Assembly: GCA_024274695.1 (NCBI GenBank) | Contig: JAJSAI010000012.1 | Location: forward strand, 1 to 40,694 | DNA length: 40,694 nucleotides | Source: an archaeon | GTDB taxonomy: Archaea > B1Sed10-29 > JAJSAI01 | Direction of reading: 5' to 3' | Notes under the pieces: model-generated | What the model was told of the DNA's origin: nothing | Seen by the model: only the letters and a program-made list of their open reading frames with translations | Databases searched by the model: none | Program-made: the position numbers and the translations under genes | Shown here: piece by piece, positions 1-1,973 of the stretch | How positions within the stretch are numbered: the first letter of the stretch is position 1 | Layout: the number at the start of each line of letters is the position of its first letter

Positions 1-339
1 CGGGTTGTTAACCTTGTCTACCACCTGAGAGAGGGTCTCTATTATGGGTTTGTCCCCTTGTATTACTGTTCCGTTTCGCCAGTCCCCGCTGAAAACAAGG
101 ACCGTCGGAACTCCCGCGCCCACACGATAGTATTCAACCACCTGCAAGAACTTTTCTTGGTTTTGGGAGTTAAAGTCTAGCATGTATTTTTCAACACTCG
201 CATTTACACTATCCAGCACTCCTGAAGAAAGCACTGCGTGACAGTGAGGGCAGCTGCTCGAGTAAAAGAACCAGACCTGCGCTGAAGACAGGGCTGGCGC
301 CAGCAGTATGGCAAGTGCAAGCAAGGTCCTGATACTCAT
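1..339 (-). CDS. Secreted thioredoxin-fold protein (CPHC motif), truncated by the window edge
   Basis: Manual reverse-strand translation: MSIRTLLALAILLAPALSSAQVWFFYSSSCPHCHAVLSSGVLDSVNASVEKYMLDFNSQNQEKFLQVVEYYRVGAGVPTVLVFSGDWRNGTVIQGDKPIIETLSQVVDKVNNP; signal peptide, CPHC redox motif, cis-Pro context GVPT. Confidence 0.85.
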   Translation of the reverse strand, partial: MSIRTLLALAILLAPALSSAQVWFFYSSSCPHCHAVLSSGVLDSVNASVEKYMLDFNSQNQEKFLQVVEYYRVGAGVPTVLVFSGDWRNGTVIQGDKPIIETLSQVVDKVNNP

Positions 340-364
340 CCGGTTCACCGTGAGAGAGTACAGG

Positions 365-402
365 TGAAACCATTTATAAAAGTTGGTTTCATAAACTGAA
401 AC
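365..402. promoter_or_regulatory. Candidate operator/promoter: alternating TGAAAC motifs around a TATA box
   Basis: TGAAACCA (365-372), TTTATAAA in the spacer, TGGTTTCA (384-391), then TGAAAC (397-402) just upstream of the ATG at 404. Confidence 0.6.
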
Positions 403-403
403 T

Positions 404-880
404 ATGGGATTTTATGCCAGAAATCTTTTGCTGGGACTCTCTCTTTTCGCAGGATTCGTGTTCGTAACCTCTTTCTTAGCTCTTTTGCTGCAGTCCAGCC
501 TGCCGCCGGAGTTGTGCTCCTGCAGCCCATGGGCCTGGTTACCTTACCTGATCCCCATACTCTCCTCACTGGGAATTTTTGTTGGAGGAATGGTGTTTTA
601 TCTTACTGACACGTGGGTTAAACAGAGAAAGTGCCGGATCGAAAGGAGGTTAGCAGTGGACAAAATTTTATCCTGTTTACCAGAGAATGAAAGGAGTGTT
701 ATAAGAGCACTGCAAACAGGTCCAATGTCTCAGGCGCAGCTGGGCAGAGCAACAGGGTTGGGAAAGGTAAGGGTCCACAGGATAGTGAAGAGGCTTGAGG
801 ATAAGGGGGTTGTCCGAACTGAGACTGCTGGAAGGACTAAGAAGGTGTTCTTGACCGTACTTTCAGAAAAAGAAGAGTAA
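404..880 (+). CDS. Membrane-anchored winged-helix transcriptional regulator (two TM helices, C-terminal MarR-like wHTH)
   Basis: N-terminal TM, short loop PPELCSCSPWAW, second TM, then ENERSVIRALQTGPMSQAQLGRATGLGKVRVHRIVKRLEDKGVVRTE wHTH. Confidence 0.8.
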   Translation: MGFYARNLLLGLSLFAGFVFVTSFLALLLQSSLPPELCSCSPWAWLPYLIPILSSLGIFVGGMVFYLTDTWVKQRKCRIERRLAVDKILSCLPENERSVIRALQTGPMSQAQLGRATGLGKVRVHRIVKRLEDKGVVRTETAGRTKKVFLTVLSEKEE

Positions 881-1667: not shown

Positions 1668-1973
1668 ATGCCGAGACCAAGAGTATTCCGCAGGATAAGA
1701 TGCGTGCCTGAAGTAACGTACTTTAAGCCTGCGGGCGTGAGGATGAGGGAACTGCAGGAAGTGGTGCTAGGATACGATGAGTTCGAGGCAGTGAGGCTAA
1801 AGGACCTGCTTGGGCTTGACCAACAGACTGCTGCCAAGAAAATGGGAGTATCCCAGCCCACCTTCCACAGGCTCCTGACTTCAGGAAGAAAAAAACTGGC
1901 AGACGCCATAGTAAACGGCAAGGCCCTAAGAATAGAGGGCGGGCACGTGAAGATAGTCCGGTCAAACTCTTGA
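1668..1973 (+). CDS. DUF134 family HTH DNA-binding protein
   Basis: [87 protein letters not shown]. Confidence 0.9.

Follow-up and report, generated by a model that had tools for sequence, protein, structure and literature searches.

A membrane-tethered winged-helix regulator and a three-box operator at thioredoxin-CcdA genes of archaea: a probable sensor of the extracytoplasmic thiol state

Described redox-responsive and membrane-bound regulators

RexT is a cytosolic cyanobacterial protein without a membrane domain, which sets it apart from the regulator described in this study; the two are alike in coupling a winged helix with a known or proposed redox role to thioredoxin. RexT of Nostoc is described as a redox-sensing winged-helix regulator of the ArsR/SmtB family that senses H2O2 and regulates thioredoxin expression (PMC8960804). 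The bacterial proteins CadC, ToxR, and TcpP are one-component regulators that are integrated into the membrane; their DNA-binding winged helix-turn-helix (wHTH) domain is inside, and their activity is affected by a pair of cysteines or a disulfide on the outer side (CadC: PMC3096576). They have an N-terminal wHTH domain, a single transmembrane (TM) helix, and a folded C-terminal periplasmic domain, which is the opposite domain order to that of the regulator studied here, and the disulfide of CadC is linked to pH rather than to a thiol reductase of its own (PMC3096576).

Thiol-based wHTH regulation has also been described in archaea. OxsR, a TrmB family protein from Haloferax, forms an intersubunit disulfide and acts near the BRE/TATA element; however, it consists of a single winged-helix domain without a TM hairpin, has many targets, and carries its conserved cysteine, C24, in the DNA-binding protein itself (PMC9426492). 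SurR and MsvR are further archaeal thiol switches, and neither CcdA nor DsbD appears in the main text of the review of such switches (PMC7278568). Archaeal one-component regulators that are membrane bound and have HTH motifs are represented by ArnR and ArnR1 of Sulfolobus, which are phosphorylated and control archaellum genes; their HTH motif is N-terminal, whereas the wHTH domain of our regulator is C-terminal, and no cysteine-loop sensor is reported in the text consulted (PMC13286277). The CcdA, DsbD, and ScsB conduits resemble the partner protein of this locus in having a thioredoxin (Trx) domain outside and a CcdA-like TM domain with two TM cysteines; the partner differs from them in being an archaeal Trx-CcdA fusion.

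The disulfide state of outside proteins in minimal, often host-associated archaea is largely unstudied. The literature that we searched, which misses most subscription journals, yielded no dedicated membrane-bound regulator of DsbD or CcdA, no description of the present regulator family, and no archaeal transcription factor that senses thiols outside the cytoplasm.

The regulator and its partner gene

The window, that is, the whole 40,694-nucleotide stretch that was analyzed, is an entire contig (C7) of an 825-kb archaeal genome, a Micrarchaeota MAG. Positions 404 to 880 of the forward strand encode a membrane-integrated winged-helix regulator of 158 amino acids, arranged as TM1, an outside CxC loop, TM2 running into a stalk helix, and a C-terminal wHTH domain. 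Its hydrophobic segments (residues 16 to 32 and 52 to 68) enclose the loop PPELCSCSPW, in which Cys38-Ser39-Cys40 is encoded at positions 515 to 523 (forward strand). In an AlphaFold2 model built on 48 homologues (mean pLDDT, 86), residues 3 to 32 form a helix, the CxC lies at the tip of the hairpin, and an unbroken helix from residue 42 to residue 91, comprising TM2 and the stalk, leads into the wHTH domain (residues 94 to 150; positions 683 to 853, forward strand). This domain matched Pfam MarR_2 (36.7 bits; cut-off, 27; E = 5e-9) and DUF7343 (32.4 bits; cut-off, 27.6; E = 9e-8). The best Foldseek matches of the model were MarR regulators at a TM-score of ~0.4, carried by the wHTH part, and a profile search against solved structures returned generic wHTH proteins only; no NCBIfam family scored above its cut-off for either the regulator or its partner.

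With two TM helices and a C-terminal wHTH domain, the loop must face the outside if the wHTH domain is cytosolic, and the charge bias agrees: in the members with a CxC, lysines and arginines average 3.1 ahead of TM1 and 2.7 past TM2, compared with 1.2 within the loop. The first-pass annotation of this DNA had read two TM helices, a CxC loop, and a C-terminal winged helix from the sequence and had named a cytosolic loop as grounds for doubt; the open reading frame, the hydrophobic segments, the domain matches, and the modeled hairpin all bear that architecture out, and the loop is predicted to be outside, given a cytosolic wHTH domain.

Three family assignments were rejected. A full-length MarR protein would not have two N-terminal TM helices and would have a separate soluble dimerization domain, which is absent here. 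Assignment to the ToxR/CadC family failed on domain order, which is reversed (TM hairpin first, wHTH last), and on Trans_reg_C, which found no match in the regulator in the Pfam search. Assignment to the OxsR/TrmB thiol regulators failed because TrmB scored 21.0 bits, under its cut-off of 25.6, and because the conserved cysteines sit in the outside loop. The common ground with known systems is the wHTH fold only, and the regulator has the defining features of none of them.

On the reverse strand, positions 1 to 348 encode the N-terminal 116 amino acids of the partner, which begin with a signal-like or TM segment and continue into a thioredoxin domain with a CPHC active site (codons at positions 241 to 252, reverse strand). 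This reading frame is open at base 1, the start of the contig. Positions 1 to 252 overlap positions 45237 to 45488 of another contig of the same genome (G000:C20) at the contig ends (252 bp, 96% identity, two amino acid differences), and strain variation probably broke the assembly inside the trx-ccdA gene. The rest of the gene lies on C20 (43737 to 45488; locus L002), where a multi-TM domain bearing NPC and FPC motifs continues the Trx frame and a gene for a CCG-domain protein comes next. Full-length orthologues in two further genomes (G015 and G010) are the same fusion; together with the continuation on C20, they identify the neighbor in the window as a Trx-CcdA fusion.

The CcdA-like TM domain matched SfLAP at 39 to 44 bits, above the cut-off, a family that we take to be related to the DsbD/CcdA transmembrane families; DsbD_TM and DsbD_2 fell just under their cut-offs. 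Other Trx-CcdA members matched both of these, and several lie below or near the Pfam cut-offs. A Foldseek search of the PDB with the fusion returned thioredoxins at an E value of ~0.01, spurious receptor matches for the TM part, and no CcdA. Across 22 Trx-CcdA sequences, the invariant cysteines are both of those in the CPHC motif (CPHC or CSHC), C162 (NPC), and C291 (xPC). Four such cysteines are the expectation for a thiol conduit of the CcdA/DsbD family, and the fusion is predicted to conduct reductant from the cytosol to an extracytoplasmic CPHC domain. Where the partner is split into two genes, the Trx component is a lipobox-bearing protein (for example, LLLVGC in L105); therefore, the Trx domain of the fusion should likewise be extracytoplasmic.

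The neighbor had earlier been described as a divergent, secreted thioredoxin-fold protein with CPHC at a distance of 64 bp. The CPHC frame and its divergent orientation stand; a complete secreted thioredoxin does not, as the frame is truncated and its orthologues are Trx-CcdA membrane fusions. The gap is 55 bp from the GTG start and 64 bp only if an ATG at position 339 is used. A CCG-domain (HdrB/GlpC-like) gene follows Trx-CcdA both in the source genome (end of C20; L002:3-698) and in G015 (L004:1-279); its product could be the cytosolic electron donor to CcdA.

A three-box operator at Trx-CcdA genes

Divergent regulator/Trx-CcdA pairs were found in Micrarchaeota (G015, G010, and G003, the last being Micrarchaeota archaeon B47_G15, from the same order as the source), in Woesearchaeota (L056), and in Nanoarchaeota (L059), with regulator identities of roughly 30 to 54%. 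A regulator profile was used to search 371 Nanoarchaeota (GTDB) genomes, and 84 loci were inspected (L017 and L126 are one genome under two handles). Trx-CcdA or split Trx and CcdA genes lay within 500 bp of 35 of these 84 regulators.

Between the two genes of the window, and common to both, is a 38-bp element at positions 365 to 402 that is composed of three boxes: TGAAAC (box 1, 365 to 370), N15, GTTTCA (box 2, 386 to 391), N5, and TGAAAC (box 3, 397 to 402). The first-pass annotation did not include it. The TATA-like TTTATAAA lies between boxes 1 and 2 (373 to 380), in conserved columns, with ~24 bp separating it from each start codon, the ATG of the regulator and the GTG of Trx. The intergenic DNA of four Micrarchaeota has in common TGAAACCATNNATA...GTTTCA...TGAAACTA; the pattern TGAAACC-N8-18-GTTTCA-N3-9-TGAAAC occurs once per genome in these four, in the regulator/Trx-CcdA intergenic region, and has no other occurrence among 19 genomes of the phylum (reversed control, 0). 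Identical 38-bp layouts, again once per genome, are present in L059 and L056.

A matrix made from six sites (boxes only, fixed 38-bp spacing, threshold score of at least 18) detected the operator at 32 of the 35 Trx-CcdA loci versus 5 of the 49 others, and shuffled loci never scored over 14.4; the three Trx-CcdA-adjacent loci without it are L132, L134, and L135. Across the 32 sites, most positions of the boxes vary little or not at all. Viewed in the direction of the Trx gene, every site runs GTTTCA-N5-TGAAAC-(often AAAG)-TTTATA-GTTTCA-start, and in many loci the start codon lies 13 to 16 bp past box 1, which suggests that the Trx-CcdA promoter gives rise to leaderless transcripts. The orientation of the operator to the Trx-CcdA gene is constant whether the regulator gene is divergent, codirectional, or unlinked; in codirectional loci the operator lies between the regulator and Trx-CcdA genes, not in front of the regulator gene, and hence it goes with the Trx-CcdA gene.

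Scanning the DNA alone of all 371 genomes for TGWAAY-N15-GTTWCA-N5-TGAAAY returned 24 matches, spread over 23 genomes, and the reversed control returned 1. Every one of the 24 is upstream of Trx-CcdA or split Trx and CcdA genes; 20 of them are loci already described above, and the pattern had been relaxed after some of them were seen, so these are not independent. The other four sites (in G379, G220, G111, and G222) are unlinked to a regulator gene and lie directly upstream of Trx-CcdA or split Trx and CcdA genes, in exactly those genomes whose CxC or C-pair regulator (L108, L112, L130, and L109) has no adjacent Trx-CcdA gene. These four sites make the strongest case for pairing the regulator with the operator and for Trx-CcdA as the target, and control of Trx-CcdA by the regulator is strongly supported computationally. 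The 38-bp three-box operator is a new element that, as judged from the DNA, ties a membrane-tethered regulator to a Trx-CcdA gene. The neighborhood conservation on which the earlier proposal had been made to depend is found in the recurrence of the pair in Micrarchaeota, Woesearchaeota, and Nanoarchaeota, and the operator links the two genes even where they are apart.

A wider regulon was considered and rejected: additional 17-bp palindromes (GTTTCA-N5-TGAAAC) in 20 genomes numbered five, all within coding sequences, and one target per genome is the simplest reading. Trx-CcdA-like proteins are present in 188 of the 371 genomes (E ≤ 1e-60), mostly without the operator, which is present in 23 of the 371.

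The C-terminal wHTH domain is predicted to bind the TGAAAC/GTTTCA half-sites, which bracket the BRE/TATA element in the promoter of Trx-CcdA and, at divergent loci, in that of the regulator gene as well. We lean toward repression, with somewhat better than even confidence, because half-sites flank the TATA element. Activation, which is compatible with redox sensing, is a possible but distinctly less probable alternative: a dimer on boxes 2 and 3, just upstream of the BRE, would recruit TFB/TBP to the trx-ccdA promoter, and box 1 or the divergent layout would serve only to autorepress the regulator gene. Toward Trx, the 17-bp palindrome is immediately upstream of the BRE/TATA element in all arrangements, and archaeal activators bind there, as illustrated by the OxsR motif (PMC9426492); however, box 1, between the TATA element and the start codon, is conserved about as well as the other boxes and, if occupied, would obstruct the initiation complex. 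Speculatively, the shared middle box would allow two binding registers.

The loop cysteines and the probable signal

The family, topology, target, operator, single-target regulon, and fixed operator orientation of this system are supported computationally. The system is a compact candidate: the putative sensor is the 158-amino-acid product of one gene, the promoter is defined, and there is a single target, whose 38-bp operator is kept across phyla. We propose that the regulator, a one-component transcription factor built into the membrane, serves Trx-CcdA alone and probably senses the extracytoplasmic thiol/disulfide state. Redox is, with a probability somewhat above even, the signal. The earlier suggestion of such a sensor was right in direction; the link among regulator, operator, and target is well supported by comparative sequence evidence, and sensing of the outside thiol state is the likeliest function.

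Most likely, the loop cysteines would act as a dithiol/disulfide switch that equilibrates with the pool of thiols outside or is read by it. We infer that a dimer is formed and that the unbroken helix of TM2 and stalk would relay the state of the loop to the paired wHTH domains. When the outside becomes oxidized, the loop dithiol would be oxidized and DNA binding would change, most likely releasing repression, so that Trx-CcdA would be made; reducing equivalents would then pass from the cytosol through the TM cysteines of CcdA (NPC and xPC) to the outside CPHC thioredoxin domain, and the re-reduction of the outside and of the loop would restore repression.

Among the 35 regulators adjacent to Trx-CcdA, 26 have a CxC, 6 have a longer-spaced cysteine pair (L084, L085, L110, L114, L125, and L133), and 3 have a single loop cysteine (those of G010, L111, and L127). 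In an alignment of 12 homologues, the second loop cysteine is present in all 12 and the first in 11, and cysteine is the sole near-invariant feature of an otherwise variable loop. Conservation of the CxC in orthologues, another point raised at the outset, thus takes the form of a CxC or other cysteine pair in most of them (26 + 6 of 35). An intramolecular CxC disulfide cannot be universal, given the single-cysteine members, which would need an intermolecular disulfide or S-thiolation. Adjacency to Trx-CcdA was found for 26 of 32 CxC loops versus 9 of 52 other loops (Fisher, 9e-9, with ancestry ignored); a regulator tree made without the loop columns requires 8 label changes, and only 2 independent pairs lie on supported branches of this poorly resolved tree, too few for significance once ancestry is corrected for.

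An unlikely alternative is that the regulator controls Trx-CcdA as a metal sensor, the loop cysteines binding a soft metal such as Cu(I), perhaps through four cysteines across a dimer, and Trx-CcdA repairing metal-induced disulfides. Close relatives with CxHGxxCPM or C-xn-CPH loops are indeed found near HMA-DsbD_2 fusions (L144 and L149) or other heavy-metal genes in 8 of 15 cases, HMA assignments being from a motif search rather than curated annotation, and a member with a CGCHH loop (L016) has a convergent P-type ATPase neighbor. However, such metal-type loops are never near Trx-CcdA, there is no HMA gene within 2.5 kb of CxC or C-pair loops, and CxC loops are without the His and Met residues of the metal-type loops. 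Furthermore, the dedicated target is a predicted thiol reductase conduit, and the cysteine spacing varies (C-x3-C, C-x6-C, or a single Cys) while the target is kept, which is unusual for a metal site.

A further reading, and quite an unlikely one, is an ordinary tethered regulator of Trx-CcdA whose loop cysteines form a fixed, structural disulfide and which responds to something else, such as the condition of the membrane or a partner protein, for instance the Trx domain. The single-cysteine variants do retain the target and the operator; however, cysteine is all that is nearly invariant in the loop, cysteine-free homologues are never linked to Trx-CcdA (0 of 18, and the same count for HMA genes), and a CXC disulfide ring is strained and hence a poor structural staple. 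Although divergent pairs are common in compact genomes, a chance neighborhood of two unrelated genes with an incidental CxC is hardly credible, being contradicted by the cross-phylum conservation, the common operator, and the unlinked operators at Trx-CcdA.

Loop chemistry changes in step with the pathway to which the neighboring genes belong, which supports the loop as the sensor, and the family provides a ready-made set of minimal sensor loops, each paired with its own target pathway. We tentatively suggest, at rather less than even confidence, that hairpin-tethered wHTH proteins form a DPANN-wide family in which sensing falls entirely to a bare outside loop, some 10 to 40 residues long, with its chemistry tuned to the target: CxC for reductive Trx-CcdA, CxHGxxCPM for heavy-metal genes, and a single cysteine for DsbA-type oxidation. 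The CxC branch would then be a closed thiol-homeostasis loop across the membrane, in which the outside disulfide state sets Trx-CcdA output via a single promoter per genome, possibly by a switch between two operator registers.

Several relatives extend this picture. Paralogues with CxHGxxCPM or C-xn-CPH loops (L137, L141, L142, L144, L147, L149, and L159, as well as L140) lie near HMA-DsbD_2 fusions, other HMA genes, or genes for FtrD-like proteins and are candidate extracytoplasmic metal sensors. L113, with the single-cysteine loop TCPVFGW, and L058 adjoin DsbA-like genes; together with L116 and L016, they make up a set with single-Cys or CGCHH loops that are divergent from or adjoining DsbA-like thioredoxin-fold genes, and L016 has a degenerate three-box site upstream. 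The cysteine-free member L136 is divergent from a cupredoxin-CcdA pair, and it, L150, and L152, also cysteine free, have GTTTCA-N5-TGAAAC-like sites at their own starts; the DNA specificity therefore extends past the CxC branch. Two homologues with CGC or CAC loops (L007 and L008, in G052 and G030) have no Trx-CcdA neighbor and are adjacent to Fe-S/MinD-type ATPases and a membrane protein; we do not count them as members of the module, as the operator is absent from the phylum of these two genomes. Finally, three genomes have a DUF134-like HTH gene near the gene for the hairpin-wHTH protein (window positions 1668 to 1973, with DUF5320; L006:3117-3392; and L012:2007-2312).
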